The notes under the pieces: model-generated
What the model was told of the DNA's origin: nothing
The model's input: the letters and a program-made list of their open reading frames with translations, nothing else
Database searches by the model: none
In this document: positions 11,899 to 44,525 of the stretch, piece by piece
Layout of the letters: each line of letters opens with the position of its first letter
Position numbering within the stretch: the stretch's first letter is position 1
DNA from: Prauserella marina
GTDB lineage: Bacteria; Actinomycetota; Actinomycetes; Mycobacteriales; Pseudonocardiaceae
Length of the DNA stretch: 64,000 nt
Direction: 5' to 3'
Assembly (NCBI RefSeq): GCF_002240355.1
Contig: NZ_CP016353.1
Location: 5,371,001 to 5,435,000 of the forward strand
Made by a program: the position numbers and the translations under genes

Positions 11899-12660
11899 TC
11901 AGCCCCGGGGCGCGAGCTGCGCGGTCCGCCCGGTCGCGCCACCGTCGACGGGAAGCACCGCGGCCGTGATGAACGACGACGCGGGCGAGGCGAGGAACGC
12001 GATCGCCTCGGCCACCTCCTCCTGTTCACCCCACCGCCTCAACGGCAAGGCACGGCGCAGCTCGTCGTACTTCTCGGGCTGGGTGTCCTTGATCGGCCGG
12101 GTGAGGTCGGTGTGCGTCGGTCCCGGCGCGACGACGTTGACCCGGATCCCGTCGGGCGCCAGGTCGATCGCCGCCGAGCGGGCCAGGTTCGTGATGGCGG
12201 CCTTGGACGTGCAGTAGGCCCAGTGCTCCGGTTCGCCGCCGGTGCCCGACACCGACGACAGCACCACGATCGACCCGCCGCCGGACCGGCGCAGGGCGGG
12301 CGCGGCGGCCCGGATGCCCAGCACTCCCGCGCGCACGTTGACGTCCATGACCCGGTCGTAGACGGCGAGGTCGAGGTTCTCGATGTCGCCCCACGCCGTG
12401 ATTCCCGCGGACAGCACCACGGTGTCGACACGGCCGAAGCGTTCCTCGGCGAGACGAACGGCGGCCTCGTTGCCTGCCGCGTCGGTGACATCGACCGCCA
12501 GCCCAGCCGCATCGCAGCGCCCTTCCGCCAGCCACGCGATCCGTTCGGCGGAGACGTCCACACCCACCACGGGACCGTGGCGTGCCAGCCACAGCTCGGC
12601 GAACGCCTTGCCGAGCCCGGACCCGGCACCGGTCACGACCGCGACCAGTCCTTCGCTCAT
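11899..12660 (-). CDS. SDR-family oxidoreductase
   Basis: A 253-residue classical SDR: TGAGSGLG cofactor motif, D after beta-2 (VVGVDVS, NAD preference), catalytic S in VLSSVSG and YCTSK, ending VDGGATGRTAQLAPRG. It starts with ATGA overlapping the acyl-CoA synthetase stop and is the last gene of the ten-gene operon transcribed leftward from 22.2 kb. It probably oxidises a hydroxy intermediate, such as a hydroxyacyl-CoA. The substrate is unknown. Confidence 0.9.
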   Translation of the reverse strand: MSEGLVAVVTGAGSGLGKAFAELWLARHGPVVGVDVSAERIAWLAEGRCDAAGLAVDVTDAAGNEAAVRLAEERFGRVDTVVLSAGITAWGDIENLDLAVYDRVMDVNVRAGVLGIRAAAPALRRSGGGSIVVLSSVSGTGGEPEHWAYCTSKAAITNLARSAAIDLAPDGIRVNVVAPGPTHTDLTRPIKDTQPEKYDELRRALPLRRWGEQEEVAEAIAFLASPASSFITAAVLPVDGGATGRTAQLAPRG

Positions 12661-14234
12661 CGTTGTCCGCTCCTCTCCTTCGCGGCGAATTCGCGCAACC
12701 GGTACTTCTGGATCTTGGTCGCGGACATCGGCCATTCCGTGCGGAACCAGACCTTCCTCGGCACTTTGAATCCCGCCAGTTCGCCCCGGCAGAACGCGAT
12801 CAGTTCGTCCTCCTCGGCGGCACATCCGGGAGCGAGTTCCACGAAGGCCACCGGCACCTCCTGCAGACGCGGATCCGCGACGCCCACGACGGCGGCGAGC
12901 TTCACCGCCGGGTGCTGCGCGAGGTGGGATTCGATCTCGGCGGCGGCGACGTTCTCGCCACCGACCTTGAGCATGTCCTTGAGCCTGCTGGTGTAGGTGA
13001 TCCGGCCGTCCTCGTCCACGCTACCGAGATCGCCGGTGCGCAGCCTGCCGTGCGCGTCGGTCCGTTCAGCGGTGGTGCGCGGATCGTTGAGGTACCCGTC
13101 GAACATTCCCGGTCCGCTCAGCCGGATCTCACCGGTCATCCCCAGCGGGCATTCCTGTTCCGTGACGGGATCGACGATCGCGACCCGCATACCGGGGAAC
13201 GGCCTGCCCGAGGTGGTGATCCGTGCTTCCAGCGGATCGTCGAGGTGGCTGTAGGTGATCACACCGCCCGCTTCGGTGAGCCCATAGGAGCTGATGACCT
13301 TGGCGTGCGGGAACGCCGCCTGCACCTGGCGCAGCGTCTCGGCGGGGCTGCTGTCGAGCACGGCGCGGACGCGTGAGACGTCGGCGGTGGCGAAGCCGGG
13401 GTGGTGGATGATCGACTGCGTGATCGTGGGGAAGGCCGGGTAGGCGAAGGTTGCCTTCTCCTCGGTGAGCTGCCGGAGCGCGGTGTCGGCGTCGATGTGG
13501 GTCAGGCTGAGCATCGCGCCACCCCGCAACACGTTGGCAAGGGTGGGCAGCAGCCCGGCCATGTGGAACAGGGGCAGCGGATCCCAGAATCGTTCCCGTT
13601 CGGTGAGTTCGAGCCGCTCCGCGACACACTCCGCCGTGCGCATCAGGGCACCGTGGCTGAGTGGACAGCCACGCGGGGACGACGTCGTGCCGGAGGTGTA
13701 CATGATCACGGCGGTGTCCTCGTGCTCGGCGCGATCCTCGACGGAAGCTGGGTCGGTGGCCTTGGCCGCGGCGTCCCAGCCGTCCTGGTCGACAAAACCT
13801 TTCGGACTGCTGGTGCCGAGGGACACCAGCGTGCGCAGGGATGGTGGTGTCCCTTCGGCGAAGGCGCGCCGCAACAGGTCGGCGAAGGGCACGTACTCGG
13901 ACACCAGGTCGGTGGTGACGATGGCGGCCAGCTCCGCGTCGGCGGCGACGTGCCGCAGTTCCTTCGGTTTGTAGCGGGCGTTCACCGTCACCGGCACGAT
14001 CCCGGCGAGGTGGGCGCCGAAGAAGACCTCCAGGAACTCGAGGCAGTTCGGCATCAGGATGCCGATCCGCTCACCGGGTTCGATGCCGAGTCCCACCAGC
14101 GAACGCGCGGCGAGCCGGGAACGCCGCAGCAGAGCCGAATACGTATGCCGCCGGTCCGGATACACGGCGACCTCCGCGTCCGGCCACAGTTCGGCCCCAC
14201 GAACCAACGCCCTGCCCACGGTCGGCACCGACAT
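12657..14234 (-). CDS. Acyl-CoA synthetase (AMP-forming), copy 1
   Basis: A 525-residue ANL-superfamily ligase: P-loop MYTSGTTSSPRGCPLSH, adenine-binding SSYGLTEAGG, the TGD motif LRTGDLGSVDEDGRITYTSR, LKDMLKVGGENV, and the C-terminal catalytic lysine in SATKIQKYRL. It activates a carboxylic acid to its CoA thioester via an acyl-AMP. AAAGGAG precedes ATG at 14234, which overlaps the EthD stop (TGATG). It is clearly paralogous to the synthetase at 19242-20963; two ligases suggest two acids of different size are activated in one pathway. Confidence 0.93.
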   Translation of the reverse strand: MSVPTVGRALVRGAELWPDAEVAVYPDRRHTYSALLRRSRLAARSLVGLGIEPGERIGILMPNCLEFLEVFFGAHLAGIVPVTVNARYKPKELRHVAADAELAAIVTTDLVSEYVPFADLLRRAFAEGTPPSLRTLVSLGTSSPKGFVDQDGWDAAAKATDPASVEDRAEHEDTAVIMYTSGTTSSPRGCPLSHGALMRTAECVAERLELTERERFWDPLPLFHMAGLLPTLANVLRGGAMLSLTHIDADTALRQLTEEKATFAYPAFPTITQSIIHHPGFATADVSRVRAVLDSSPAETLRQVQAAFPHAKVISSYGLTEAGGVITYSHLDDPLEARITTSGRPFPGMRVAIVDPVTEQECPLGMTGEIRLSGPGMFDGYLNDPRTTAERTDAHGRLRTGDLGSVDEDGRITYTSRLKDMLKVGGENVAAAEIESHLAQHPAVKLAAVVGVADPRLQEVPVAFVELAPGCAAEEDELIAFCRGELAGFKVPRKVWFRTEWPMSATKIQKYRLREFAAKERSGQR

Positions 14235-14773
14235 CACACACTCCTTTGTGGAATCGCGAAACCCATCGAACGACACACCAGCGAAACCTCGGCACCACGC
14301 GTCAGCGACAGCGCCTCGGCGATCCCGTCCACCATGGCGTAGTGCACACGCTTTCCCTTCCCCGGCGCGGGAACCGGACGAGCCAGGTCGAGCGCGACCC
14401 ACGAAGCACCCGGCGGCGGCGACTCGTCGAACCACAGCACACGGATACCCTCGGCGACGACGGGAACGGAATCACCGATAACCGCCGAAGCCCATGCCGC
14501 GTCACGGTCCAGGAAGGACGCTTCGTCGGGCGTCACCACATCGCGATAGTACGGCGACGCGTAGGCCTCCCGCTCGGCATCCCGGTCGGCGAACCAGGTT
14601 TCCGAGCAGAACCGCGCGGTGCCACGATCCCATTCCTGATCCACCGGCCGGTTCTGGGTGTAACCGAGCAACCTCGGCGTCGCCGTGAAGAGATCACCGT
14701 GCCGCCGCTCCCAGTGACGTCGTGCCACCTCGGGGTCACCACGGTGCGGGACAAGGAAAATCCGGTGCTGCAC
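14234..14773 (-). CDS. EthD-domain (dimeric alpha-beta barrel) protein
   Basis: A 179-residue protein beginning HRIFLVPHRGDPEVARRHWE, followed by RRHGDLFTATPRLLGYTQNR, the pattern of EthD/stress-responsive alpha-beta barrel proteins, and HDP-like spacing in the first domain. A second half (VRVLWF to VHYAMVDGIAE) may repeat the fold. EthD proteins are needed for some P450-dependent ether degradation systems, with an unclear role. It lies between the NDMA-type alcohol dehydrogenase (3 bp away) and acyl-CoA synthetase 1. Confidence 0.8.
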   Translation of the reverse strand: MQHRIFLVPHRGDPEVARRHWERRHGDLFTATPRLLGYTQNRPVDQEWDRGTARFCSETWFADRDAEREAYASPYYRDVVTPDEASFLDRDAAWASAVIGDSVPVVAEGIRVLWFDESPPPGASWVALDLARPVPAPGKGKRVHYAMVDGIAEALSLTRGAEVSLVCRSMGFAIPQRSV

Positions 14774-14776
14774 GGA

Positions 14777-15907
14777 TCAGTCCTCGTGGAGGATGACGCC
14801 GCGAATGTTGCGGGCGGCCTCCATGTCGGCGTACGCCTCGTTGATCTGATTGAGCGAGTACGTCCTGGTGATCATCTCGTCGATCATCAGTTCACCGCGC
14901 TGGTACCGCGCCAGCAGCCTCGGGATGTCGATGCGCGGCTGGAGCCCGCCGTACAGGCCGCCCTTGATGGTCTGCTGCATCATCACAAAACCGAAGACGT
15001 TGAACTGGGCGTCGATGTCCCACATGGACGACACACCCGCGATCGCCATCGTGCCGCCCTTGCCGAGCAGCCCGAGCATCGGCTGGATCATCCTTCCTTC
15101 GACCACGCCGATGGTGACGATCACCTTGTCGGCCATCCGGCCATGGGTGAGGTCGGTGAGCAGCGGCATCGCCTCCTCGATCGACGCCGCCACGTGGGTG
15201 GCACCGAACTTCGGCGCCTCCCGCCGTTTGAACGCCACCGGGTCGATGACGACGATCTCGCGCGCTCCGGCATGTTTCGCGCCCTGCACCGCGCTCATGC
15301 CGACACCGCCGACGCCGAGCACCACCACCACGTCGTCGATCTCGACCTCCGCGATCCGGACGGCGGTGCCCCAGCCGGTGGGCACGGCGCAGCCCGCGAG
15401 CGCGGCGGCGGGGAACGGAATGTCCCTGGCTATCTTGATGACCGAGTCGACGGGCGCGACGATGCGGTCGCTGAACGTGCCGAGGTAGGTCATCGGGCCG
15501 ACCGGTTCCCCCGCCGCGGTGTGGATGCGGTTGGTGCCGTCGAGCATCACGCCCTGGAGCAGCCCGGCTCCCCGGTCGCACAACTGCCCGATTCCGCGCA
15601 CACACGGCACACATGTGCCGCAGGAGGGCATGAACGTACAGGTGACGTGATCGCCGACGGCCAGTTCGGTGACCCCTTCGCCGATCTCCTCGACGATCCC
15701 GGCACCCTCGTGGCCGCCGAGGAACGGCGCGAAGTCGACGGCCTGGTCACCGGCGGCGGCGTGGTTGTCGGAGTGGCAGAGTCCTGCCGCCCTGAGCTTG
15801 ACCATCACCTCGCCCCGCTTCGGCGGTGAGACCTCCAGTTCCTCGACGTGCCAGTCGTTGCGCACGTTCTGCTGTGTCTTCAGAAGTACCGCACCGTGAG
15901 ACTTCAT
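14777..15907 (-). CDS. NDMA-dependent (mycofactocin-type) alcohol dehydrogenase
   Basis: A 376-residue zinc MDR: GLCHSDNH (catalytic Cys), GGHEGAGIV, structural-zinc cysteines in CGTCVPCVRGIGQLC, and nucleotide motif LGVGGVGMSAV. The sequence has the character of the NDMA-dependent alcohol dehydrogenase family, whose members hold NAD tightly and pass electrons to mycofactocin. It likely oxidises a primary alcohol to the aldehyde that the adjacent ALDH (12 bp upstream) takes to the acid. No mycofactocin biosynthesis genes are in the window. Confidence 0.88.
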   Translation of the reverse strand: MKSHGAVLLKTQQNVRNDWHVEELEVSPPKRGEVMVKLRAAGLCHSDNHAAAGDQAVDFAPFLGGHEGAGIVEEIGEGVTELAVGDHVTCTFMPSCGTCVPCVRGIGQLCDRGAGLLQGVMLDGTNRIHTAAGEPVGPMTYLGTFSDRIVAPVDSVIKIARDIPFPAAALAGCAVPTGWGTAVRIAEVEIDDVVVVLGVGGVGMSAVQGAKHAGAREIVVIDPVAFKRREAPKFGATHVAASIEEAMPLLTDLTHGRMADKVIVTIGVVEGRMIQPMLGLLGKGGTMAIAGVSSMWDIDAQFNVFGFVMMQQTIKGGLYGGLQPRIDIPRLLARYQRGELMIDEMITRTYSLNQINEAYADMEAARNIRGVILHED

Positions 15908-15919
15908 CGGCTCTCCCGC

Positions 15920-17365
15920 TCACTTCACCTTGATGGACTTGTACTGGAGGAACTCGCCGATCCCTTCGAGACCGAACTCGCGCCCGAAGCCGGACTGCTT
16001 GAATCCGCCGAACGGCGCGAACAGCGACACTCCCGCCGTGTTGATCGCGACGGTGCCCGCCCTGATCCGGCCTGCGACCGTGCGGGCCAGTTCCTCGTCG
16101 GCGGCGTAGACCGAAGCGGCAAGGCCGTACGGCGTGCCGTTGGCGATGGTGACGGCCTCATCGAGGGTGTCGTAGGGAATGACGCTGAGCACGGGGCCGA
16201 AGATCTCCTCTTGCGCGATCCTCGCGCCGGGGTCGACGTTCGCGAACACCGTGGGTGCCACGTAGAAACCCCGGTCGAGACCTTGCGGCCTGCCACCACC
16301 GAGAACCAGATCGGCGCCCTCCCGCCTCCCGGCATCCACATAGGACAGCACGCGTTCGAGCTGGCGAGCGCTGGCGAGCGGACCGAGGTCGGAGGCGCCG
16401 TCGAGAGGGTCGCCGACCGTCATGGCGCTCAGGCGTTCCACGATCGCGGTGACCACCTCGTCGTGCCGGTGCCGGGGCACCACCACGCGGGTCAGCGCCG
16501 CGCAGATCTGGCCGTTGAACGCTATGAATCCGGGTACGAGTGATGGCAGCACGTCGTCCAGTGGGATGTCATCGAGAATGATCGCGGGCGATTTGCCTCC
16601 CAGTTCGAGGGTCACGTTCGCGAGCCGTCCCGCGCAGGCGCCCATGACGGCTTTGCCTGCCGGGATCGAGCCGGTGAGGCTGACCTTGTCGATCGCGGGG
16701 TGTGCGACGAGGTGCGCGCTCACCTCAGTGGAGGCGGCCAGCACGCTCAGCACCCCCTTCGGAACCCCTGCCGCTTCGGCCATCTCGCCGACGAGCGCGG
16801 CGGTGAGTGGGGACTCCCGCGCCATTTTCAGCACCACAGGGCATCCGGCCAGCAGCGCGGGCACCATCTTCATCGCGAGGTAGAGGCCGGGGCCGTTCCA
16901 CGCGGTGATGACGACGGCGGGACCGATCGGTTCGCGGACCACGTCGACCACACCGTCGGGAACCTCGCGGCGTTCGGTCAGCGCGAGGCCGGCGGCCTGG
17001 TCGAGGAGGGTGCGCCAAATCGTCACCACACCGGTGTCGAGTGCGGCGGCGTGTGCCAGTGTCGGTCCGGATTCGGTCACCCAGGCCCGGTCGAACTCGT
17101 CCTTGCGTGCCTCGAACGCGTCGCAGAACCGGCGGAGCACCGCGATCCGCTCGGCGAGCGGCATACCCGGCCACGGTCCGTTGTCGAACGCCGCGCGGGT
17201 CGAGGCCACGGCGCGGTCGGCGTCCTCGACGGTCGGATCCGCGGCCACGGCGACGACGTCACCGGTCGCGGGCGACACCACCTCGTACCCTGGCTCCGCG
17301 TGCACCCATTCCCCACCAAGGTAAAGCCGGTCGATACGGGCAACAGCGCCGGTGCTCGTCGTCAT
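15920..17365 (-). CDS. Aldehyde dehydrogenase
   Basis: A 481-residue NAD(P)-dependent ALDH. Motifs: ITAWNGPG (cofactor/oxyanion Asn), LTGSIPAGKAVM, catalytic Glu in LELGGKSP, and catalytic Cys in FNGQICAALTRVVVP, ending FGREFGLEGIGEFLQYKSIK. It converts an aldehyde to a carboxylate. ATG at 17365 is chosen as the start after which the family N-terminus (RLYLGGEWV) follows. Together with the alcohol dehydrogenase and acyl-CoA synthetase it makes an alcohol-aldehyde-acid-CoA relay. Confidence 0.93.
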   Translation of the reverse strand: MTTSTGAVARIDRLYLGGEWVHAEPGYEVVSPATGDVVAVAADPTVEDADRAVASTRAAFDNGPWPGMPLAERIAVLRRFCDAFEARKDEFDRAWVTESGPTLAHAAALDTGVVTIWRTLLDQAAGLALTERREVPDGVVDVVREPIGPAVVITAWNGPGLYLAMKMVPALLAGCPVVLKMARESPLTAALVGEMAEAAGVPKGVLSVLAASTEVSAHLVAHPAIDKVSLTGSIPAGKAVMGACAGRLANVTLELGGKSPAIILDDIPLDDVLPSLVPGFIAFNGQICAALTRVVVPRHRHDEVVTAIVERLSAMTVGDPLDGASDLGPLASARQLERVLSYVDAGRREGADLVLGGGRPQGLDRGFYVAPTVFANVDPGARIAQEEIFGPVLSVIPYDTLDEAVTIANGTPYGLAASVYAADEELARTVAGRIRAGTVAINTAGVSLFAPFGGFKQSGFGREFGLEGIGEFLQYKSIKVK

Positions 17366-17384
17366 GATGATCCCTCCACAATGT

Positions 17385-18173
17385 TCACAGTCGGGTGTGG
17401 ACGGTCGAGGCCGCGGCACGGGCACGACCGTTCGGTGACAGTCCCCTGGTGGCGGCGGTGGGTGCCTCGACGGACACCGCGGCGTCCGGGAGCGCGGCCA
17501 GCAGCCCGGCCAAATCCAGTTCTCCTTCTCCCGGCAGCAGTCGCCCGGCGAGTGCCTCCGCGCGAAGGTCCGGCGGGGCGGCGCGTGGAGCGTCGCAGAG
17601 TTGGAGATACGGAAAGAGATCCCCGCCGTGCTGCCTGACCGCGGCGGCGACCTCGGCGGCGCTCCCGCCGGAACGTTGCAGGTGCAGGGCGTCGATGAGG
17701 ATCCCCGCTCCGGCGGGAACGGCGGTCGCGATCGCCTCGGCGAGGGTGCGGCACCGGGTGAACGCCATCGGTTCCAGGCACGGGCGCACCCCTGCGGCGC
17801 GTGCCTCCGCGACGATCGCCGCCAGCACGTCCACCGCCTCGGCGGGTTCCAGTTCCTCGTTGACGACCAGCAGATGCCGGGCCCCGCATTCGGCGGCCAG
17901 TTCCACCACGCAACCGATCTCGTCGCCGGAAAGCCGCCCGTTCAACCGGATCACCTCGACGTCGAGCACACCCAGCCCGGTGGCTTCGAGCGCCGCGAGC
18001 ACCCGATGGCGACGGCGTGCGTCGGCGCCGAGGTCCGCGACCACCGGTTCACGGCTGCCCGCGCCGCGCAGGGTCACCGCGTCGAAACCGGCTTCCGCGG
18101 CCGCCGCGACGAACACCTCCGGGTCGGTGTCCAGGAAGTCCAGGCAGGCCAGGGCGAGGTGGCGACGCGGCAT
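17385..18173 (-). CDS. Sugar phosphate isomerase/epimerase-like TIM barrel protein
   Basis: A 262-residue protein of the xylose-isomerase-like/AP endonuclease 2 fold. Probable metal ligands are E in PCLEPMAF, D and H in ILIDALHLQRSG, a D in LQLCDAP and E in VSVEAP. Such proteins isomerise, epimerise or dehydrate oxidised substrates; in catabolic clusters they can act on hydroxy-keto intermediates. It starts 5 bp after the VOC stop. Real activity is unknown. Confidence 0.8.
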   Translation of the reverse strand: MPRRHLALACLDFLDTDPEVFVAAAAEAGFDAVTLRGAGSREPVVADLGADARRRHRVLAALEATGLGVLDVEVIRLNGRLSGDEIGCVVELAAECGARHLLVVNEELEPAEAVDVLAAIVAEARAAGVRPCLEPMAFTRCRTLAEAIATAVPAGAGILIDALHLQRSGGSAAEVAAAVRQHGGDLFPYLQLCDAPRAAPPDLRAEALAGRLLPGEGELDLAGLLAALPDAAVSVEAPTAATRGLSPNGRARAAASTVHTRL

Positions 18174-18178
18174 CGAAA

Positions 18179-18703
18179 TCACCGTTCCCGCAACAGGTTT
18201 GTCCCGTCCCAGCCTTGCGCGGCCTTGGCCACCCTCCGGTAGAGACCGGTGAGGTAGGGCGTGTCCTCGTAGATCTCGATCAGGTGCCCCACGTGGGGGC
18301 CGGGGTCGAGGAACACGAACCGCACCTCCGGGGTAGACGCGTCCATCACGACCCGCGCGCCGTCGGCCACCAGCCGGTCGCGGGCGTCGTTGATGTCGTC
18401 GACGAAACAGGCCACGTGGTGGATGCCGGTCGCGCCCCTGCGCATGTCCTTCTCGAGTGCCACCGGTTCCAGCGCGTGGTGGTGCACGAACTCGACCATC
18501 ACCGGTCCCCATTGCCCCAGCGCGCAGGTGTGGTCGAACACCCCGCCTCCTTCGCCGGGCACGTCGACGTACTCGGTCGGAACGTGTTCGCGGACGTAGA
18601 AGGGCCCGGCTCCGTAACGCCGGTGCCACGCGGTCGCGGCGGCGCGTACGTCCGTGGTCGCGTAGGCGATCTGCACCATCCGCATTCCGCTCGGCAGGCT
18701 CAT
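18179..18703 (-). CDS. VOC-family (glyoxalase fold) protein 1
   Basis: A 174-residue two-module VOC protein. Compared with a classical metal site, the first position (VQIAYAT) lacks the usual His, while E (VMVEFVHH), H (IHHVACFV) and E (GHLIEIYED) are present. VOC members include epimerases, lyases and extradiol dioxygenases. ATG at 18703 overlaps the stop of the next VOC gene (ATGA). It is one of five VOC proteins in the island. The substrate is unknown. Confidence 0.82.
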   Translation of the reverse strand: MSLPSGMRMVQIAYATTDVRAAATAWHRRYGAGPFYVREHVPTEYVDVPGEGGGVFDHTCALGQWGPVMVEFVHHHALEPVALEKDMRRGATGIHHVACFVDDINDARDRLVADGARVVMDASTPEVRFVFLDPGPHVGHLIEIYEDTPYLTGLYRRVAKAAQGWDGTNLLRER

Positions 18704-19245
18704 GATCGCCGCCACGTCGGCCGTGCCTCGTTCCATGCGATCCGGCCCGCCAGCACGTCGGCGACCCCCGCACCTTCCGGCATCACAGGGTCGGCCCAGG
18801 CCAGCGGCGAATCCGTCAGCTGCACCAGCGTGCCGAAACCGGAGCTGGGACGGATGAACGTCTCGTCCCAGCACCCGGTACCCGTTCGGGTGTCCACAGT
18901 GGAGTATCCGGCCGCCTCCAGCCGCGCGGCGGCTTCGGTGACGTCATGCACAAAGCAGGTCATGTGGTGGAAACCGGGACCGCGCTTGTCGAGATAGGCC
19001 GCGAGATAGGACTCCTCGTGCAACGGCTGGAGCAGCTCGATCTTCACCCCCGGCGGGAAACTCAGCTGCAACGACCGGATCCCGAGCCGGTCGTCGTCGC
19101 CGCCCGCGATCAGCTTTCCGCCGAACAACTCGGTGTAAAGCGGTGCCGCGGCGGCGAGGTCGCGCACCGCGACGGCGACGTGGTCGAAGCGGGTGACCAG
19201 CCCGGCGAGTTCATCGACCGCACCGGGAACGAGATCCTCGATCAC
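18700..19245 (-). CDS. VOC-family protein 2, paralogue of the one at 25643
   Basis: A 181-residue VOC protein starting at GTG 19245, which overlaps the acyl-CoA synthetase stop (GTGA). Likely metal residues are H (FDHVAVAV), E (KIELLQPL), H (FHHMTCFV) and Q (GTLVQLTD). It shares the FHHxTxxVHDV segment and an unusual C-terminal extension ADVLAGRxxxxxARPTW with the VOC protein at 25643-26149, so the two arose by duplication. Epimerase or lyase activity is possible. Confidence 0.82.
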   Translation of the reverse strand: MIEDLVPGAVDELAGLVTRFDHVAVAVRDLAAAAPLYTELFGGKLIAGGDDDRLGIRSLQLSFPPGVKIELLQPLHEESYLAAYLDKRGPGFHHMTCFVHDVTEAAARLEAAGYSTVDTRTGTGCWDETFIRPSSGFGTLVQLTDSPLAWADPVMPEGAGVADVLAGRIAWNEARPTWRRS

Positions 19246-20963: not shown

Positions 20964-21002
20964 CGCGGTGTCCTTCCTGCTGTCCTTTCAGCCGGTCGGC
21001 GA

Positions 21003-22201: not shown

Positions 22202-22219
22202 ACCAAACGATTGCTTGGT
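22202..22219 (-). promoter_or_regulatory. Island TetR operator, site A (acyl-CoA dehydrogenase operon)
   Basis: On the minus strand the 14-mer reads AGCAATCGTTTGGT (22215-22202), one mismatch from the identical copies at 22272 and 44512. On the plus strand, ACCAA and TTGGT also flank an 8-bp spacer across 22202-22219. It lies 35 bp upstream of the acyl-CoA dehydrogenase start. Confidence 0.75.
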
Positions 22220-22271
22220 TAATGGAACACTGGGTCCGAGGTGATGTCAAGCACGTGGCGGGCTTTTATCT

Positions 22272-22285
22272 ACCAATCGTTTGGT
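22272..22285 (+). promoter_or_regulatory. Island TetR operator, site B (VOC-ferredoxin operon)
   Basis: ACCAATCGTTTGGT, arms ACCAA and TTGGT with a 4-bp centre, 35 bp upstream of the rightward VOC gene. It is identical to the copy at 44512-44525, and the match extends to TACCAATCGTTTGGTGTA (18 bp) in both. Confidence 0.82.
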
Positions 22286-33375: not shown

Positions 33376-33383
33376 GGCCCGCC

Positions 33384-33812: not shown

Positions 33813-34249
33813 GCGTCCCTCCTCGGGAAGACGATGGAGTTGTAGGTCGCCGCGGCGAGTTCGCCCTCGGCGTCGGTGAGCGCGAGCCGGAAGCCCACGA
33901 TGTCGAAGACGCCGGTCCGTTTGCCGCGCTTGCGTTCCGCGGAAACGAACTCCCCGCTGACGGTGAAGCTCTCGCCGACCTTGAGCGGGCGTTCGAGCAC
34001 GGTCTCGTGCTCGCCGAACATCGGACCGTCGGCGGCGGTCGCGCCGCAGATCGCGAAGACCTCGTCCCAGCTGACGCCCTTGCCGACGGCCACGCTGATG
34101 TAGGCGAACAGCGGGTGCGCCACCTCGCCGTCCCGCCCGGACTCCACGACATCGTTGAGCAACCAGTCGACGTACGGCTCGATGGTGTAGGACCCGCCGG
34201 GAATCGGCCTGCCGACGATCGCGGCAAGCTCGCTCTCGGTCATCGTCAT
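33809..34249 (-). CDS. MaoC-like hydratase, N-terminal-type (FAS1 DH) subunit
   Basis: A 146-residue hot-dog protein with a long MaoC_dehydrat_N-like helix and sheet (PYVDWLLNDVVESG, HPLFAYISVAVGKGVSWDEVF) and no obvious D-x-N-x-x-H motif, so it is the structural partner of the downstream catalytic subunit. First gene of the 11-gene leftward operon that ends at 25643, with the operator 34268-34281 just upstream. Confidence 0.85.
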   Translation of the reverse strand: MTMTESELAAIVGRPIPGGSYTIEPYVDWLLNDVVESGRDGEVAHPLFAYISVAVGKGVSWDEVFAICGATAADGPMFGEHETVLERPLKVGESFTVSGEFVSAERKRGKRTGVFDIVGFRLALTDAEGELAAATYNSIVFPRRDA

Positions 34250-34267
34250 CGAGACTCCAATTCACCA

Positions 34268-34281
34268 ACCAATTGATTGGT
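34268..34281 (-). promoter_or_regulatory. Island TetR operator, site C (MaoC-thiolase-P450 operon)
   Basis: ACCAATTGATTGGT, arms ACCAA and TTGGT with a 4-bp centre TTGA. It lies 18 bp upstream of the first MaoC gene, between it and the TetR gene. Position and symmetry match sites A, B, D, E and F. Confidence 0.8.
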
Positions 34282-37233: not shown

Positions 37234-37247
37234 ACCGTTCGTTTGGT
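37234..37247. promoter_or_regulatory. Island TetR operator, site D (moaA-tetR / hydrolase divergent promoter)
   Basis: ACCGTTCGTTTGGT: the right half TCGTTTGGT is identical to sites B and F, the left arm is degenerate. It sits in the 93-bp gap between moaA (leftward) and the alpha/beta hydrolase (rightward), so one site may control both units, including the regulator itself. Confidence 0.7.
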
Positions 37248-37301: not shown

Positions 37302-38231
37302 ATGGACGCCACGACGGCACATTTCCAGGTCGCTCCCGAGTACCGTGATCGCGCGCCCGGTACCGAAAACAGCGTCCCACCGGCGTGGTTCTCGGCTGCC
37401 CTGCGACGCGAGCGGCGCACGGGCGAGGTGCGAGTGGACGGCGTCCCGATCCGGTTCCTGTCCTGGGGTGACCCGCGCGAGCCCGCCACGATCCTGGTGC
37501 ACGGAGGAGCGGCGCACGCCATGTGGTGGGCGCCGGTCGCGGCGCGGCTCGACGGCCACGTCGTCGCACTCGACCTTTCCGGGCACGGCCGCAGCGGGCA
37601 CCGGCCCGGCTACTCGATCGAGCACTGGGCGAAGGAGATCATCGCGGTCGCGCGGAGCGTGTCGGGCGGCCCCGCCACGATCGTCGCGCACTCGCTCGGC
37701 GGCATCGTGGCCTCGCACGCCATGTCCCACACCGGCCTCGGCGCCCGGTTCCACAGGGTGGTTCTCCTCGACGCTCCGGTGTGGCCGGACGCGCCCGCGC
37801 CCGAGAAACCGTTGTCGGACAGGGAGGTCCGGCCGCACAGGAGCTACGCCACCGCGGCGGAGGCACTCGGGCGGTTCCGCCTGGTTCCCTCGCAGCCGTG
37901 CGCCAACGACTTCTACGTCGAGCACATCGCGTGGCACAGCCTCGCTCCTTTCGAGGAGGGCTGGCGGTGGCGTTTCGACCCCCGGATCTTCGCCGACCCG
38001 GACGGCGATCACCGGATCACCAGGTTCGAAGGCGACCTCGACCGCGCGAAAAGCCCGTTCGCGGTGGTCATGGGCGAGCGATCGTACCTTTCGCACGGCG
38101 CGAGGGCGGCCTTGGCGAACCGGCCCGGCACACCACTGTGCTTCGTGCCGGACGCGGCCCACCACGTAATGCTGGACCAGCCCCTCGCCCTTCTCGCCGT
38201 GATACGGGATCTGCTCGGCTCCTGGCCGTGA
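37302..38231 (+). CDS. Alpha/beta hydrolase
   Basis: A 309-residue hydrolase: oxyanion HGGAAHAMWW, nucleophile elbow VAHSLGGIV (Ser), probable acid in LLDAPVW or downstream, and catalytic His in PDAAHHVMLDQP. No signal peptide, so it is cytoplasmic. It probably hydrolyses an ester, lactone or ring-cleavage product of the pathway. GGGAGGAA precedes the ATG. The only rightward gene of this half; it ends 7 bp from the convergent dctQ stop. Confidence 0.9.
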   Translation: MDATTAHFQVAPEYRDRAPGTENSVPPAWFSAALRRERRTGEVRVDGVPIRFLSWGDPREPATILVHGGAAHAMWWAPVAARLDGHVVALDLSGHGRSGHRPGYSIEHWAKEIIAVARSVSGGPATIVAHSLGGIVASHAMSHTGLGARFHRVVLLDAPVWPDAPAPEKPLSDREVRPHRSYATAAEALGRFRLVPSQPCANDFYVEHIAWHSLAPFEEGWRWRFDPRIFADPDGDHRITRFEGDLDRAKSPFAVVMGERSYLSHGARAALANRPGTPLCFVPDAAHHVMLDQPLALLAVIRDLLGSWP

Positions 38232-38238: not shown

Positions 38239-38784
38239 TCAGATCCCGGCACCGCTGAGGTCGTCCCGCTTCGGACGGGCGCGCACGTCCTCCACCGCGG
38301 TCACAATCTGTTCCAGCGCGAGAATGAGGAAACCCGCGAACACGGCGAGCCTGGCCGGCCACATGGGAAGCCGGACCAGACCGAGCTTGTACTCACCGGT
38401 GTCGAGCGCGGCGGCGAGCACCTCCCAGGATGCCAGCGCGAGCAGCACCGCGACGAACGCGGCGCCGATCCCGCCCACCATCCGCACGATCTGGTAGGTA
38501 CGCCCCCGCAACTTGTCCAGCACGGACGTCATGGAGACATGCCGCCGCTGCCGTTCCGCCTCACCCAGCGCGAAGAACGCCGTCAGCGCCATCGCCAGTT
38601 CGACGTACTCGACAACGCCCGGCACCTCGGGTTTGCCGAGTTCGCGCAGCACGAAGTTGTAGACGACGAGCAGCATGATGAAGACCATGCCCGCGATGGA
38701 GACCACGGCCAGGCTTCGGGAAAGGGCGTGGATCGTCGCGGCGAGACCGCGACCGACGGTACCGAGGAAACCGCGGACGTTCAT
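38239..38784 (-). CDS. dctQ: TRAP transporter small permease (DctQ)
   Basis: A 181-residue membrane protein with four helices (LAVVSIAGMVFIMLLVVYNFVL; VEYVELAMALTAFFALGEA; VGGIGAAFVAVLLALASWEV; LAVFAGFLILALEQIV) and the family segment E-x-x-R-RHVSMTSVLDKL. DctQ joins the large permease to form the membrane part of a sodium-driven solute uptake system. Start overlaps dctM stop (ATGA). Confidence 0.93.
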   Translation of the reverse strand: MNVRGFLGTVGRGLAATIHALSRSLAVVSIAGMVFIMLLVVYNFVLRELGKPEVPGVVEYVELAMALTAFFALGEAERQRRHVSMTSVLDKLRGRTYQIVRMVGGIGAAFVAVLLALASWEVLAAALDTGEYKLGLVRLPMWPARLAVFAGFLILALEQIVTAVEDVRARPKRDDLSGAGI

Positions 38785-40118
38785 TCGGTCAGTCCCATCT
38801 GGCTCGGAATGAAGGTGACAATCGCGGGAAAGACGAACATCAGGATCACGACGATGATGTCCAGCCGCACGTACCAGAGCACGCCCTTGAAAGCGGTGCT
38901 CAGCTCGACGTCCTTGCGGATCCCGGCGACGACGAACGCGTTGAGCCCCAACGGCGGGGTGAGCAGCCCGATCTCGATCAGCTTCACGAACAGCAATCCG
39001 AACCAGATCCCGTCCATCCCGAGTTCGGTGACGACCGGGTAGGTCAGCGGCACCATGATCAGCAGGATCGACGTGGGATCGAGGAACATGCCCAGCGGGA
39101 TGAGCAACAGCAGGATGAGCGCGACGATCAGCCACGCGGGCACCGGAAGTCCGGTCAGGCCGTCGGCGATCAGTTGTGGCGCCCCGGCGGCGACCAAGAA
39201 CGAGGAAAAGATCGCGCCACCGATGAGAAGCGCGAAGACCATCCCGTTGAGACTGACCGCCGCGCTGAGCGAACCCCAGAGACTCCTGCCCATCTCCCTG
39301 GGCCTGCGCAGGTGCTCGACGATCACCATCAGCATGGCGACGAACGCGCCGACCGCGGCAGCCTCCACCGCCGTGAAGAAGCCGGAGTACATACCGCCGA
39401 TGATGATCACGAACAGCAGGCCGATGCGGAAAAGGCTGTAGGCGCCGGAAAGCAGGGCGGGCCGGTTGCTGAGCGGCAGCACGTCTTCGGCTCCCCTGCC
39501 GAACAGTTCGGGCTTGCGCTTGGCACGGATCATGATGGAGATGCCGTACACGACCGCGGTGACGACACCGGGCCCGATGCCCGCCATCAGCAGTGCGCCG
39601 ATGGACTCGCCGGTGAGCACGCCGTAGATCACCAGCGGCACACTCGGCGGGATCAGCACACCCAGGGTTCCCGCCGCGCCGACCACACCGGCGGCCACGT
39701 GCATGGCGTACCCGGCCTTGCGCATCTCGGTGATCGCGAGGTTCCCGATCGACACCACGGTGGCGATACTCGAACCGCTGACCGCGGCGAAACAGGCGCA
39801 CGCCGTGAGGGTGGCGACCGCGAGACCACCGGGGAGGCTGCGGAGGAACCAGCCCAGCACACGATAGGCGCCCTCGGCCAGGTTCGCCCGCTCGGCCGCG
39901 TTGCCCAGCAACACGAACATCGGGATGACCAGCAGCGTGAACTTCGAGGCGCTGCTGATCGGCAGCGCGCCCAGCGTCGCCATCCCCACGTCCGGGCCGC
40001 TGATCAGGTAGTAGCCGGCGAACCCGGCGAAGGTGAGTGCCAGCGCGATGCGCATACCCGAGAACAGGCACGCCGCGAGAATCGCGATGACCACCAGGAA
40101 AAGCTCAGTGGTTCCCAT
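38781..40118 (-). CDS. dctM: TRAP transporter large permease (DctM)
   Basis: A 445-residue protein with about 12 membrane helices, including the family signature region GSSIATVVSIGNLAITEM, IPPSVPLVIYGVLTGESIGALLMAG, and LMVIVEHLRRP. It is the sodium/solute symport channel of the TRAP system. It lies between dctP (48 bp upstream) and dctQ. Confidence 0.95.
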   Translation of the reverse strand: MGTTELFLVVIAILAACLFSGMRIALALTFAGFAGYYLISGPDVGMATLGALPISSASKFTLLVIPMFVLLGNAAERANLAEGAYRVLGWFLRSLPGGLAVATLTACACFAAVSGSSIATVVSIGNLAITEMRKAGYAMHVAAGVVGAAGTLGVLIPPSVPLVIYGVLTGESIGALLMAGIGPGVVTAVVYGISIMIRAKRKPELFGRGAEDVLPLSNRPALLSGAYSLFRIGLLFVIIIGGMYSGFFTAVEAAAVGAFVAMLMVIVEHLRRPREMGRSLWGSLSAAVSLNGMVFALLIGGAIFSSFLVAAGAPQLIADGLTGLPVPAWLIVALILLLLIPLGMFLDPTSILLIMVPLTYPVVTELGMDGIWFGLLFVKLIEIGLLTPPLGLNAFVVAGIRKDVELSTAFKGVLWYVRLDIIVVILMFVFPAIVTFIPSQMGLTE

Positions 40119-40166
40119 GGGACACAGGCCCTTTCGTCGACCCGGACATCCACAGTGGACGTATGG

Positions 40167-41267
40167 TCAGTTTCGGCCGCAGGTCGTGAGGCCCTCGGTG
40201 TAGGAGGAGGCGCCGGTGTGCTCGCGCAAGGAGTCGGTGTAGGCGCGCCAGACCTTCTCGACGTCACCGGGGTCGACGGACGTCGCCGCCTCGTCCTTCC
40301 ACACCCCTGGCGCGAGCCGCTGGGTCGCGTCAGCGATCCTGGCCTCGTCGGCCTCGCTCCAGCGCACGATCGTGCCGCCGGAGTCGAGGAACTTCTCGCA
40401 GGCCTGCCGGTCGTACTTGGTCATCAGCTGGTCCGACTTGGCGTACCACTCACCTTTGAGTTCCTCGATCGTGTCCTTCACGTCGCCGGACAACCGGTCG
40501 TAGGCGAGCTTGCTGATCGCGAAGATCGCGCCACCGTTCTCGCCGACGTCGGGCGCCATGTACTTCGCCACGTCGGTGATGCCGTTGGCGACCTGGGTGT
40601 CCATCGGATACGTGACACCGTCGACGATGCCGCGTTCCACGGACTCGTACACCTCTTCCGAGGCCTGGAAGGTCGGCTCCGCGCCGAGTTCCTGCCACAC
40701 CACCGACGACGGCCGCGCGGGAATCCGGATCTTGAGACCGGCCACATCGGACAGTGACTTCACCGGGGAGTTGAACGCGACCGCGGAGGCGTTGTTCGGC
40801 AGGAACCCGATCAGTTCGAGGTCCTGTCGCGCGAGTTCGTCGCGGAAGGCCTCGACGTTGTCCGCGAGATCCTGGAGCGCCCGCAGGCGCGCGGCCTGGT
40901 CAGCGTGCGCGATCGGCACCATGTTGATGTTGTTGAGCGGGAGTTCCGCTGGAAAGTAGGCGGGAATCACGTTGCCCGCCTCCGCGCGGCCCTGCTTGAG
41001 CCCCGGCAGCGTGTCCGTGCCCGAGAGGAGGCCGCCGCCGAAGGTGACCTCGGTGCGCACCTTCCCGTCCGTACGCTTCTCCAGCTCGTCCATGAACCAC
41101 TGGATGAGATCGGACTGCGAGCCACCCGGCGGCAGCACCTGCGCGGCCCGCAGCTGGACCGGCCCGCCCGCGTTGGACGCGATGCCAGCGCAGGCGCTCG
41201 TCGCCATCACGACCGCGACGAGACCGGCGAGGAGCCGGGAGATCCGGCTGGTCCTGGTGCGCGTCAT
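40167..41267 (-). CDS. dctP: TRAP transporter solute-binding lipoprotein (DctP)
   Basis: A 366-residue extracytoplasmic binding protein with a lipoprotein signal (LLAGLVAVVMATSACAG, lipobox Cys at 26). The DctP core includes LKIRIPARPSSVVWQELGAEP with the conserved Arg that pairs with a substrate carboxylate, and ERGIVDGVTYP. This implies the imported compound is a carboxylate, or is made into one by an exported esterase. GAGGAGG precedes ATG at 41267. Confidence 0.94.
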   Translation of the reverse strand: MTRTRTSRISRLLAGLVAVVMATSACAGIASNAGGPVQLRAAQVLPPGGSQSDLIQWFMDELEKRTDGKVRTEVTFGGGLLSGTDTLPGLKQGRAEAGNVIPAYFPAELPLNNINMVPIAHADQAARLRALQDLADNVEAFRDELARQDLELIGFLPNNASAVAFNSPVKSLSDVAGLKIRIPARPSSVVWQELGAEPTFQASEEVYESVERGIVDGVTYPMDTQVANGITDVAKYMAPDVGENGGAIFAISKLAYDRLSGDVKDTIEELKGEWYAKSDQLMTKYDRQACEKFLDSGGTIVRWSEADEARIADATQRLAPGVWKDEAATSVDPGDVEKVWRAYTDSLREHTGASSYTEGLTTCGRN

Positions 41268-41321: not shown

Positions 41322-41335
41322 ACCAACCGGTTGGT
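41322..41335 (-). promoter_or_regulatory. Island TetR operator, site E (TRAP transporter operon)
   Basis: ACCAACCGGTTGGT is a perfect 14-bp palindrome, 54 bp upstream of dctP. It shares the ACCAA/TTGGT arms and 4-bp spacing with the other sites and has the centre CCGG. Confidence 0.82.
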
Positions 41336-41440: not shown

Positions 41441-42220
41441 TCAGAGCGAATAGCCGCCGTCGACGTCAATCCACTGCCCGGTGACGTAGCGGGCGTCGTC
41501 GCAGGCCAGGAAACACACCGCGGCCGCGATGTCGGCGGCCTTGCCGAACGCGGCCAGCGGGATCCGGCTCCGCGCGGTCTCCAGATGCTCGGGGCGGATG
41601 TCGCCACTCGCCATCAGAGCCTGGGTCATTCCCTCGTCGAGAATGCCCACGCCGACGGCGTTGGCGCGGACGCCGTAACGCCCTTCCTCGGCCGCCACCG
41701 CCTTCACCACCGCCTCGTTGGCCGCCTTCGGCCCGCTCGAGAGCACGTCGCGCAAGACAAACCGTCTATTCGCGACAGTGGCGACCACGACCACCGAACC
41801 GCGTGACTCCCGCAGCGCGGGCAACGCGGCACTGATCACCGCGAACGTGCCGCCCGCGTCGATCCGCAGCTGCTCGTTGTACTGCTCGGGGGCAAGCGTG
41901 CTCGCCCATGCCTGGTAGTTGGTCGGCGAGGCAGCCAGCACCACGGTGTGAAGCCCGCCGTGCCGTCTGACCGCCTCCCCCACCACACTCCGAACCTGTT
42001 CGGTGTCACCGAGATCGAGCCCTACCGCGACCCCGTCCCTGCCCGTTTCCTTCACGAGCGCGGCGGTCTCCGTCGCGGCTGAGGCGTTGCCAGCGTAGGT
42101 CACCGTGACGTCGGCGCCGAGCCCGGCGAGCCGTGTCGCCACCGCCCTGCCGATCGCGCCGCTGCCGCCGACGACGAGGCAACCGCCCCGCCGTCCTCCG
42201 AACGCGTCCTCGGTCATCAC
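41441..42220 (-). CDS. SDR-family protein lacking the catalytic tyrosine
   Basis: A 259-residue SDR: VVGGSGAIGRAV cofactor loop, LDLGDTEQV, and an end DARYVTGQWIDVDGGYSL typical of the family. Where YxxxK is expected it has SSGPK (Ser in place of Tyr, Lys kept), so it is an atypical SDR that may not work by the usual proton relay. It starts at GTG 42220 or ATG 42217, overlapping the stop of the molybdoenzyme, and may act with it. Confidence 0.85.
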   Translation of the reverse strand: MMTEDAFGGRRGGCLVVGGSGAIGRAVATRLAGLGADVTVTYAGNASAATETAALVKETGRDGVAVGLDLGDTEQVRSVVGEAVRRHGGLHTVVLAASPTNYQAWASTLAPEQYNEQLRIDAGGTFAVISAALPALRESRGSVVVVATVANRRFVLRDVLSSGPKAANEAVVKAVAAEEGRYGVRANAVGVGILDEGMTQALMASGDIRPEHLETARSRIPLAAFGKAADIAAAVCFLACDDARYVTGQWIDVDGGYSL

Positions 42221-44490
42221 ACCGGCACCGACACCGGCGCGTCACGCGCGGGCGCCTCGGGTGCGTCACCGGCACGGATCCGGCACCGCGCGCCCCGCAA
42301 CGGCTGGTCGCCGGCGAAACTCGACAACTCGGGAGCGCCGGGGGTAATGGCATTCGCGTTGGAAACCCAGACGCCGGACAGGTGCGGTTCGTACTGCCGC
42401 TCATCGGGATTCCACCAGTAGCCGTCCGGATTCACCGTGTCCCGCCGCAGGGATTCGTCGAACCGGGCTCGCTGCCGGATCGCGCCCTCCGGCCGTTCGA
42501 TGATCATCCACTCGCCATCGGCGACCCCGTACTTCGCTGCCGTGTCCGGATGGACGTCGCACAGCGGTTCGGGGTGGATCCGGCGCAGCCGCGCGCTCTG
42601 GCGCAGGTTCGACGCCGTGAGCTCACGGACCCTGCTGCCGGGGATCATCTGCAACGGGTACTCCTCCTCCGGCGCGTCCGGAATCGAGTACGGCGGCCCG
42701 GTGTAGACCGGTCGCGCCTCGATCCCGAATCGCTCGAACAAACTCGGCACCAGCTCGACCTTTCCCGAGGGAGTGGCGAATCCGCGTTCCCGGTACTTGT
42801 AGAACACCGGTTTGATGAAGCGGTGGTTGACCTCGCCGTCGGCCCACTCACGATAGGACTTCCCCGACGGTTCGAGGAAACGGTCGAACATCCCCTCGAC
42901 GGTCTCCGGCCAGTAGCCGGGGTCGTCGGAGAGCCTGCGGCCCAGTTCGGCCCAGAGGTCGTAGTCGTTCCTGCGCTCGCCGAGGGGCGTGGAAACCTGC
43001 TGTCCCACCACGAAGAAGTTGCCGATGCCCCAGTGGGCGGACAGGTCGGCGCGCTCCATGAAGTCGGCGGCGGGCAGCACGTAGTCGGACAGCTGCGCCG
43101 TCGGCGTCATCCACATGTCCATCGTGACGAGCAGTTCCAGGTTGTCGCTCGTGAACGCCTCGTACGCGTCCCTGCCCGCGCCCATGGACAGCAGCGGTTC
43201 CCCGCACTGCACGAGGATCGCCTTCACCGGATAGGGATCCTGCCTGGTGACGGCGCGGTATATCGCGGGCTGGCTGGCGAAGAGGACGTAGGCGGTGCCG
43301 GTGTGGCCCTGCGGGTAGACCTTCGCGGTGGCGTCCCGGAACGCCTGGTATCCGGTGATCGAGGTGATCGGGTTCTCGTGCGCGTTGACGCTTTCCCTGG
43401 TGCGCAACGGATGATCGACCAGCTTCTCGAAGTTGATGTTGGGAAGCCAGGAGAACGTGTCCGGGTCGTAGGGGTTGCCGAGCGGCTCACCGCCCGGCCG
43501 GTCCAGGTTGCCGGAGATCGCCCGCAGGATGGACCTTCCCAGCACCGCGGAACGGGAGGCACCCTCGCCGAGTTGCGTCGCCGCGACCCCGAACGACAGG
43601 CGCGCGGGCCCCAGCGTGGCGTACATGTGGGCCGCCGTCACGACGTCGTCGGCTGGAACGCCGGTGATCTCCTCGGTACGTTCGGGAGTCCACTTCGCGG
43701 CCTCGGCCTCGACCTCGTCGAAGCCGGTGCACCACTGCTCGACGAACTCCTTGTCGTAGATGCCGTCCCGGATCATCACGTGGATCATGCCGAGCGCGAG
43801 GGCACCGTCGGTCCTCGGGCGGACCGGAAGGTGGAGGTCCGCGCGCTGCGCCGTTTTGGTGCGGCGCGGGTCGACGACGATGAGCTTGGCGCCAGCCGCC
43901 TGGCACTGGCGCAGCCGTTCGAACGACGGCGGCGAGGACTCCGCGGGGTTGGAGCCCCAGATGACGATGCACTTGGTCTTGCCGGGGTAGTAGCTCTGGT
44001 ACACGGTGTCCCAGCCGTAGACCGAGATCTCGGCGATGTACTCGCTGACACCGCAGTTGCGGCCCTGGCTGACGAAGTTGGGGGTGCCGAAGTCGGCGGC
44101 CCAGCGCCAGCTGGCCCAGTCACCGGGGGTCTTGTGCGTGCCACCGAGAGTGGCCACGGACTCCGGGCCGTCCTTCTCCCGCAGCTCGCGCAGCTTCTCG
44201 GCGATCTCGTCCATCGCCTGTTCCCAGGAAATCCGCTCCCATTTGCCCTCGCCGCGCTTGCCAACGCGCTTGAGCGGGAAGTTCAGCCGGTCGTCATGCT
44301 GGTGGATCTCGATCGCCGTTGTGCCCTTGATGCAGAGTTTGCCGTTGGCCACCGGGTTCTCGCGGTCCCCGTCGAACGCCTGCGGATGTCCCTCGCCATC
44401 GACGTGGAACAGCATGCCGCAGTGCTGCGGGCACAAGGTACAGAACGTCCGGCGGACGTCGGATCCGTCCGCGAAGTTGAGCTTGGCCAA
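42217..44490 (-). CDS. Molybdopterin oxidoreductase (DMSO reductase superfamily)
   Basis: A 757-residue enzyme. N-terminal [4Fe-4S] site C17-x2-C20-x3-C24...C53 (CTLCPQHC, LCIKG); pterin-binding GSNPAESSPPSFERL, VDPRRTKTAQRADLHLPVRPRTDGALALGM; molydopterin dinucleotide C-terminal domain (SGVWVSNANAITPG). A Cys in GRNCGVSEY is a possible Mo ligand. There is no twin-arginine signal, so it is cytoplasmic. It could be a hydratase, hydroxylase or dehydrogenase. TTG start with GGGAG upstream. Its moaA is in the same regulon. Confidence 0.9.
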   Translation of the reverse strand: MAKLNFADGSDVRRTFCTLCPQHCGMLFHVDGEGHPQAFDGDRENPVANGKLCIKGTTAIEIHQHDDRLNFPLKRVGKRGEGKWERISWEQAMDEIAEKLRELREKDGPESVATLGGTHKTPGDWASWRWAADFGTPNFVSQGRNCGVSEYIAEISVYGWDTVYQSYYPGKTKCIVIWGSNPAESSPPSFERLRQCQAAGAKLIVVDPRRTKTAQRADLHLPVRPRTDGALALGMIHVMIRDGIYDKEFVEQWCTGFDEVEAEAAKWTPERTEEITGVPADDVVTAAHMYATLGPARLSFGVAATQLGEGASRSAVLGRSILRAISGNLDRPGGEPLGNPYDPDTFSWLPNINFEKLVDHPLRTRESVNAHENPITSITGYQAFRDATAKVYPQGHTGTAYVLFASQPAIYRAVTRQDPYPVKAILVQCGEPLLSMGAGRDAYEAFTSDNLELLVTMDMWMTPTAQLSDYVLPAADFMERADLSAHWGIGNFFVVGQQVSTPLGERRNDYDLWAELGRRLSDDPGYWPETVEGMFDRFLEPSGKSYREWADGEVNHRFIKPVFYKYRERGFATPSGKVELVPSLFERFGIEARPVYTGPPYSIPDAPEEEYPLQMIPGSRVRELTASNLRQSARLRRIHPEPLCDVHPDTAAKYGVADGEWMIIERPEGAIRQRARFDESLRRDTVNPDGYWWNPDERQYEPHLSGVWVSNANAITPGAPELSSFAGDQPLRGARCRIRAGDAPEAPARDAPVSVPV

Positions 44491-44511
44491 GGCTACGCTC
44501 CCATCATACCT

Positions 44512-44525
44512 ACCAATCGTTTGGT
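44512..44525 (-). promoter_or_regulatory. Island TetR operator, site F (molybdoenzyme operon)
   Basis: ACCAATCGTTTGGT, identical to site B at 22272, in the flanking TACCA...GGTGTA context as well. It lies 21 bp upstream of the molybdoenzyme start and is the last copy of the motif, marking the right edge of the island. Confidence 0.82.

Follow-up and report, generated by a model that had tools for sequence, protein, structure and literature searches.

Several described systems resemble parts of the locus considered here. The actinobacterial steroid side-chain operons of the igr/KstR type combine a cytochrome P450, MaoC proteins, a DUF35-thiolase, a further thiolase and an acyl-CoA dehydrogenase (ACAD) under a TetR regulator. 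In the benzoylsuccinyl-CoA thiolase BbsAB a thiolase has an OB-fold partner, and the acetylene hydratase of Pelobacter acetylenicus (PDB 2e7z) and the catechol dehydroxylases form a group of bis-molybdopterin guanine dinucleotide (bis-MGD) enzymes that is usually met in anaerobes. Genes of these kinds are found in Prauserella marina, a soil-dwelling member of the Prauserella group, in a stretch of 64,000 nucleotides (contig NZ_CP016353.1, positions 5,371,001 to 5,435,000; here called the window). Gene calling on the window gives a block of 36 genes, g12 to g47, at 11899-44490, and it is well supported that these make up one co-inherited catabolic module with one regulator. The conclusion follows from reciprocal hits that are largely confined to the block, from putative operator sites that recur in relatives, and from the presence of a sole TetR gene.

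A Pfam scan of all 36 proteins recognised the three genes of a tripartite ATP-independent periplasmic (TRAP) transporter (DctP, DctM, DctQ) and one alpha/beta hydrolase for uptake and hydrolysis, and, among redox proteins, a P450 with a ferredoxin and a ferredoxin reductase, a second ferredoxin, two zinc alcohol dehydrogenases (ADHs) and one aldehyde dehydrogenase (ALDH). Proteins of CoA-thioester type are two AMP-dependent ligases, one ACAD, four short-chain dehydrogenases/reductases (SDRs), two thiolases and an OB-fold partner, the Pfam match of which (g31, PF01796) is under its cut-off. There are also five VOC proteins, an EthD, a SnoaL and a TIM-barrel protein, MoaA, TetR and a bis-MGD molybdoenzyme. 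The coding fraction of the block is 0.972, compared with 0.505 for the 1-11898 region to its left. An earlier sequence-only reading of this DNA had described 36 almost gapless genes forming a coherent degradation set, and the gene calls, the 97% coding density and the Pfam classes agree with this. Its MaoC pair and its pair of luciferase-like monooxygenases (LLMs) hold for one member each: g36 matches MaoC, but the MaoC-sized g37 has no Pfam match at E<=1e-3, and g35 matches LLM, but g34 scores under the cut-off.

The synteny comparison that the sequence-only reading had suggested finds the block again in five other genomes. All 36 genes have reciprocal best hits in P. endophytica, where the order is kept; 33 have them in P. 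salsuginis, 29 in Streptomyces carpinensis and 31 in S. brasiliensis; P. flavalba also has the block, in the stretch compared (g34-g47) and with g30 found too. For the 28 flanking genes the corresponding counts are 7, 0, 1 and 1. Four of the seven in P. endophytica (g61-g64) are strong matches (69–93%), and the remaining three are at 26–42%. The limits of the block are g12 and g47.

The block is rare. At E<=1e-100, g47 is found in 2 of 298 sampled genomes of the order and in 6 of 396 of the phylum, both counts including its own genome, and the other five in the phylum are at 34–37% identity. The VOC gene g22, which has 78–97% identity in four relatives, is matched at 1e-40 in its own genome alone among 394 genomes of the class. 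The thiolase g30 is present at 90% identity or more in at least 4 of 150 genomes of the family, its own included, with at least six more at 58–61% among the matches listed, and in the same sample it is without a match in at least one genome of its own genus. A scan of named genomes for g47 gave 36 loci, of which five are at 81–95% identity (three Prauserella, two Streptomyces) and three at 58–60% (two Novosphingobium and one pseudomonadotal metagenome-assembled genome, MAG). When plasmids were searched with a 20 kb query, none of the nine records found covered more than 2% of it, and g22 had no plasmid match at 1e-20.

Strand and gaps divide the block into seven transcription units, not the six of the sequence-only reading; six is instead the number of putative operator sites that head them, one of which serves a divergent pair. 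The core of the site is a 14-base palindrome, ACCAANCGNTTGGT, which with up to 2 mismatches has 11 matches in the window, compared with a mean of 1.7 and a largest value of 5 in 20 first-order shuffles, and seven of the 11 make up the six sites at block promoters. An 18-mer, ACCNACCAATCGTTTGGT, has 5 window matches at 4 places with up to 3 mismatches, where shuffles give an expectation of 0.07, and with up to 2 mismatches it is found at four places in the whole host genome, all of them within the block. The sites at 37234 and 41322 are too weak for the 18-mer and are seen only with the looser core. These window counts are partly circular, since the motif was derived from these sites, but its recurrence at orthologous promoters in four other genomes is not. 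All 5 genomes scanned have two sites each at the g21/g22 pair and also carry the motif upstream of g37. The three Prauserella-type clusters scanned all have sites at the promoters of g47 and of the TRAP genes, and in both Streptomyces a site heads the g47 operon. The shared operators and single regulator of the sequence-only reading are thus borne out, in that TetR g38 is the sole regulator shown by Pfam within the block and the palindrome is shared by all of the predicted units. From its position as that sole regulator, g38 would be the protein that binds the six sites.

A number of observations weigh against so simple a regulon. Three of the loose-core matches are outside the block and another is within the MoaA gene; with 3 mismatches the 18-mer also occurs at three places elsewhere in the genome, and a reversed control pattern has 2 genome-wide matches to its 8. 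The TRAP genes and the LLM pair g34/g35 lack reciprocal hits in both Streptomyces, as do g15 and g16 in S. carpinensis and g13, g27 and g32 in P. salsuginis. As the module is variable among relatives, a single route cannot depend on all of its genes. In addition, sequence matches say little on the chemistry of the VOC proteins, the SDRs and g47.

Table 1. Features of the window (positions counted from its first letter; "." marks a site without assigned strand).
Feature	Position	Strand	Basis
Unit 1 (g12-g21): SDR, acyl-CoA ligase, EthD, Zn-ADH, ALDH, TIM-barrel (AP_endonuc_2), VOC, VOC, acyl-CoA ligase, ACAD	11899..22166	-	gene calls, Pfam, reciprocal best hits
Putative operator upstream of unit 1	22202..22219	-	18-mer
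Putative operator upstream of unit 2	22268..22285	+	18-mer
Unit 2 (g22-g26): VOC (methylmalonyl-CoA epimerase-like), small ferredoxin, ferredoxin reductase, second ferredoxin, Zn-ADH	22321..25659	+	gene calls, Pfam, reciprocal best hits
Unit 3 (g27-g37): VOC, SDR, P450, OB-dependent thiolase, OB-fold partner, SDR, thiolase, weak LLM, LLM, MaoC, MaoC-sized protein without Pfam match	25643..34249	-	gene calls, Pfam
OB-dependent thiolase g30	28117-29250	-	
OB-fold partner g31	29247-29648	-	
Putative operator upstream of unit 3	34264..34281	.	18-mer
Unit 4 (g38-g41): TetR, SnoaL, VOC, MoaA	34454..37208	-	gene calls, Pfam
TetR regulator g38	34454-35137	-	
MoaA g41, one of two MoaA in genome	36192-37208	-	over model cut-off
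Putative operator between MoaA and hydrolase	37234..37247	.	14-base core, 2 mismatches
Alpha/beta hydrolase g42	37302..38231	+	Pfam
TRAP transporter DctQ, DctM, DctP (g43-g45)	38239..41267	-	Pfam
Putative operator upstream of TRAP genes	41322..41335	.	14-base core, 0 mismatches
SDR g46 and acetylene-hydratase-like bis-MGD molybdoenzyme g47	41441..44490	-	Pfam, sequence search
Molybdoenzyme g47	42217-44490	-	
Putative operator upstream of g47-g46	44508..44525	+	18-mer
Displaced copy of tRNA-Lys 3' part (att-like repeat), 47 bases	44813..44859	+	96% identical to host C1:5366000-5366047

With this gene content, with the block co-inherited in three genera and with shared palindromes at each predicted unit, all of which are direct observations, the block is probably a single TetR-controlled regulon for the aerobic CoA-thioester breakdown of one bulky carboxylate or ester, itself probably branched and cyclic. 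As the steps might be ordered, the compound would be taken up by the TRAP transporter, hydrolysed by g42 if an ester, and activated by the ligases g13 and g20. Hydroxylation would be by the P450 g29 with ferredoxin g23 and reductase g24, oxidation by the ADHs, the ALDH and the SDRs, and beta-oxidation by the ACAD g21, the MaoC proteins g36/g37, the SDR g32 and the thiolase g33. In a separate cut, a bulky beta-ketoacyl-CoA made by P450 g29 and SDR g28 would be cleaved by the OB-dependent thiolase g30/g31. Ring or branch intermediates may be isomerised, epimerised or cyclised by the VOC, EthD and SnoaL proteins. A cyclic or enolic intermediate could be the substrate of the molybdoenzyme g47, which would act on it like a catechol dehydroxylase or a hydratase, together with SDR g46 and probably a ferredoxin, its cofactor being supplied with the help of the extra MoaA, and the TetR may be relieved by a CoA-thioester of the pathway.

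The thiolase g30 is nearest to BbsB (1.4e-64), which is also the nearest solved structure, and more weakly matches PhlC. It differs from BbsB in scoring 243.9 against an NCBIfam cut-off of 750, and the adjacent g31 matches BbsA only at E=0.096. In each of 11 compared sequences, that of g30 among them, the thiolase Cys and the HDAF and GHP motifs are present. The cysteines of g31 make up the canonical four-Cys finger, Cys-x2-Cys-x10-Cys-x2-Cys. The catalytic Cys and His and the adjacent OB-fold gene of the BbsAB/PhlBC type are thus found here, with the residue roles taken to be those of BbsB.

Adjacent genes of the same classes are also what an igr-type cluster for the side chains of steroids or bile acids would have, with a P450, a MaoC pair, a DUF35 protein and an Ltp2-like aldolase removing a branched side chain. 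Indeed g31 is a DUF35 partner with a zinc finger, as in the Ltp2/Sal aldolases, g33 scores 399 bits on a steroid 3-ketoacyl-CoA thiolase model (cut-off 515), and CYP125-type chains are among the matches of P450 g29, at about 1e-73. Its top hits, however, are to TamI chains and to a chain with the bare label "Cytochrome P450". The block palindrome is not that of KstR, and no steroid-ring gene was recognised by Pfam among the 36. PMC12329534 describes a YDHF/YDCY motif in Ltp2/Sal aldolases and a Cys3His1 arrangement in Shy. A steroid side-chain aldolase was therefore rejected for g30, which is a thiolase by its HDAF and thiolase Cys, YDHF/YDCY being absent in 11 of 11 sequences, and the four-Cys finger of g31 is not that of Shy. 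A steroid substrate is improbable.

The OB protein, thiolase, P450, SDR and TetR, with a nearby LLM and a PaaK-type ligase, recur in three other Pseudonocardiaceae genera (L106, L109 and L110), the last with an RPE65-type oxygenase nearby. This recurrence supports a joint role of P450, SDR and thiolase in a single step. In the remaining three relatives, with a thiolase at 58–60%, no P450 lies next to it. The PaaK-type ligases and the RPE65-type oxygenase fit an aromatic or aryl-alkanoid plant compound, such as a lignan, stilbenoid or acylphloroglucinol, where the OB-thiolase would cleave an aryl-beta-keto-CoA and g47 would remove or move a ring hydroxyl. The nearness of g30 to benzoylsuccinyl-CoA thiolase, and of g31, weakly, to BbsA, points the same way, as does the relationship of catechol dehydroxylases to acetylene hydratase in PMC7028382. 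Both block ligases have the FadD-type C-terminus (PF13193), however, not the PaaK type, and no ring-cleavage dioxygenase was recognised in the block, though a VOC protein could be one. The branched aliphatic unit to which an S. carpinensis operon points (below) also speaks against an aromatic substrate, which is a possibility short of probable.

S. carpinensis lacks the TRAP genes and has a branched-chain-amino-acid-type ATP-binding cassette (ABC) system instead. Uptake is therefore exchangeable and the TRAP genes, present as the sequence-only reading had it, are weak evidence for a carboxylate as substrate; as proof of one they were rejected. The S. carpinensis cluster further has MoeA, MoaE, an aldo/keto reductase, another EthD/MmlI-like protein and, inside the cluster, a two-subunit 2-oxoacid:ferredoxin oxidoreductase (L068:2112-4960). 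Behind the same kind of site is an operon of a ligase (ACS), an old yellow enzyme (OYE)-type reductase, a fused B12-binding/MeaB/mutase protein, presumably of the IcmF type by its domain order, and a 3-hydroxyacyl-CoA dehydrogenase, with an LLM and a flavin-reductase gene close by. This operon, with its IcmF-type mutase, hints at a branched (isobutyryl-like) CoA-ester product.

This would agree with a branched terpenoid or polyketide acid or ester as substrate, with the LLM proteins as Baeyer-Villiger-type monooxygenases and the hydrolase opening a lactone, giving CoA esters of the isobutyryl or propionyl type. The VOC g22 is, in keeping with this, nearest to methylmalonyl-CoA epimerases and keeps an H/Q/H/E set that is taken here to be meaningful. 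Yet the IcmF-type operon was found in Streptomyces and not in the window, the LLM pair is the very one without reciprocal hits there, and the Baeyer-Villiger activity is purely putative. Such a substrate is a tentative possibility, likewise short of probable.

The best sequence match of g47 is acetylene hydratase (phmmer 2e-104 over residues 15-712; next best 2e-55), and it is also the nearest solved relative, at Foldseek rank 1 with a template-modelling (TM) score of 0.84 by query length. The AlphaFold model has a mean pLDDT of 81.4, with residues 20-23 at the cluster motif under 50. The N-terminal 4Fe-4S cluster motif CxxCxxxC (CTLCPQHC) and the Cys that is the ligand of Mo/W (QGRNC) are kept. 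The positions counted as Ile142, presumably of importance in acetylene hydratase, and Trp179 are Gly and a gap, and Asp13 of CxxCDIxC is replaced by Pro. Asp13 is described in PMC12096430 as specific to the acetylene hydratase subfamily, with activity lost on exchange to Ala. None of the 14 members of the g47 clade has Asp here, unlike proteins of R. opacus DSM 44186 (L078) and G328 (L011), which keep CxxCDIxC. Acetylene hydratase proper was therefore rejected for g47, which also differs in sitting in a CoA-thioester cluster of an actinobacterium, and a true alkyne hydratase acting on a substrate with a C-C triple bond is very improbable in spite of the match in sequence and fold. The L078 gene, on plasmid pRop44186_a (L078:11998-16049) and followed by genes for a ferritin-like protein and FdxA, is in itself a candidate acetylene hydratase of an aerobic Rhodococcus.

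The tree of g47 has 27 rows: 18 of the 36 named-genome loci, seven from the phylum search, L078 and g47; L040 (a fragment) and weaker partial loci were left out. In it g47 falls, at a support of 100/100, in a clade of 14 rows that also takes in Novosphingobium, Chloroflexota and a gammaproteobacterial MAG and that is separate from the CxxCDIxC proteins, L078 among them; some long rows outside this clade are placed unsurely. Four loci of the same phylum (L009, L010, L014, L015) are also outside it, in a tree without proven catechol dehydroxylases. No published description of the clade was found. Around the three pseudomonadotal homologues of g47 (L028, L029, L030), BLAST between the loci finds nothing but g47 itself shared in position. 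With Pfam covering 10 of 17, 3 of 20 and 7 of 21 called genes, L028 has Rieske oxygenases, an ACAD and a recombinase, with P450s by tblastn, L029 a regulator, a transporter and a methyltransferase, and L030 dehydrogenases, an LLM, an enoyl-CoA hydratase and sulfate-assimilation genes.

The MoaA of the block is 44% identical to the sole further MoaA found in the genome, and the only MoaE found is elsewhere; both Streptomyces clusters have a MoaA too, and this second MoaA belongs to the module. In the authors' tree of PMC7028382, acetylene hydratase is the closest relative of the catechol dehydroxylases, for which reason a dehydroxylase- or hydratase-like step is proposed for g47. The same paper has a Streptomyces homologue required for CC-1065 production. 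By that published tree, the dehydroxylases and this CC-1065/yatakemycin homologue would lie in the same part of the bis-MGD family as g47, and the homologue gives a precedent for such an enzyme in Streptomyces. It may be, as a proposal short of probable, that g47 is the first of a hitherto undescribed functional class of Mo (or W) enzymes working in aerobic catabolism, its clade being common to actinobacteria, sphingomonads, Chloroflexota and a gammaproteobacterium. Such an enzyme, supplied by its own MoaA and by a ferredoxin, would take off, add or shift a hydroxyl group on a cyclic intermediate, either a CoA ester or an acid, and the pathway would be one for a widespread natural compound whose breakdown by this route is not yet known. 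The block also sets a member of the group that comprises acetylene hydratase and the catechol dehydroxylases within a seemingly aerobic route, where its reaction can be worked out from the pathway intermediates.

The sequence-only reading could match the block to no named pathway (steroid, phthalate, cholate or terpenoid), and no cluster with this gene combination was found in the literature either, within a library that lacks most subscription papers, which makes this absence weak evidence. The gene set is bounded, rare and highly conserved, and its regulator is testable, so that the substrate can be found by induction and not by guessing.

An intact tRNA-Lys(CTT) is 49.9 kb to the left of its displaced 3' copy (Table 1), outside the window and with the block between the two, and has the remnant of a C-terminal tyrosine-recombinase part beside it (host C1:5365968-5366412; L080, L089). 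The copy was first spotted by eye and then confirmed by search; the window itself gave nothing in an Rfam scan at gathering cut-offs or in a tRNA scan. The repeat (47-48 bases), tRNA-Lys and integrase remnant would fit the ends of an integrated, decayed island in the host. A simple island is argued against by P. endophytica and P. flavalba, where the block is next to g61-g64, which here lie outside the repeat, and by the 120 kb around the P. endophytica block, where no tRNA and none of the left-flank genes of the host were found.

The sparsely coding region to the left of the block carries a MerR-type gene and other short ones. Just outside the block to the right is a mannonate-dehydratase-like gene (45080-46057), for which none of four relatives gave a reciprocal hit close to the block. 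Further on, at 58443-62595, are genes for a TetR with two TetR_N stretches, a cupin, a CoA-transferase III and LLM proteins, which are neighbours of the block in P. endophytica and P. flavalba as well (66–94% identity) and are possibly a second, linked catabolic module.

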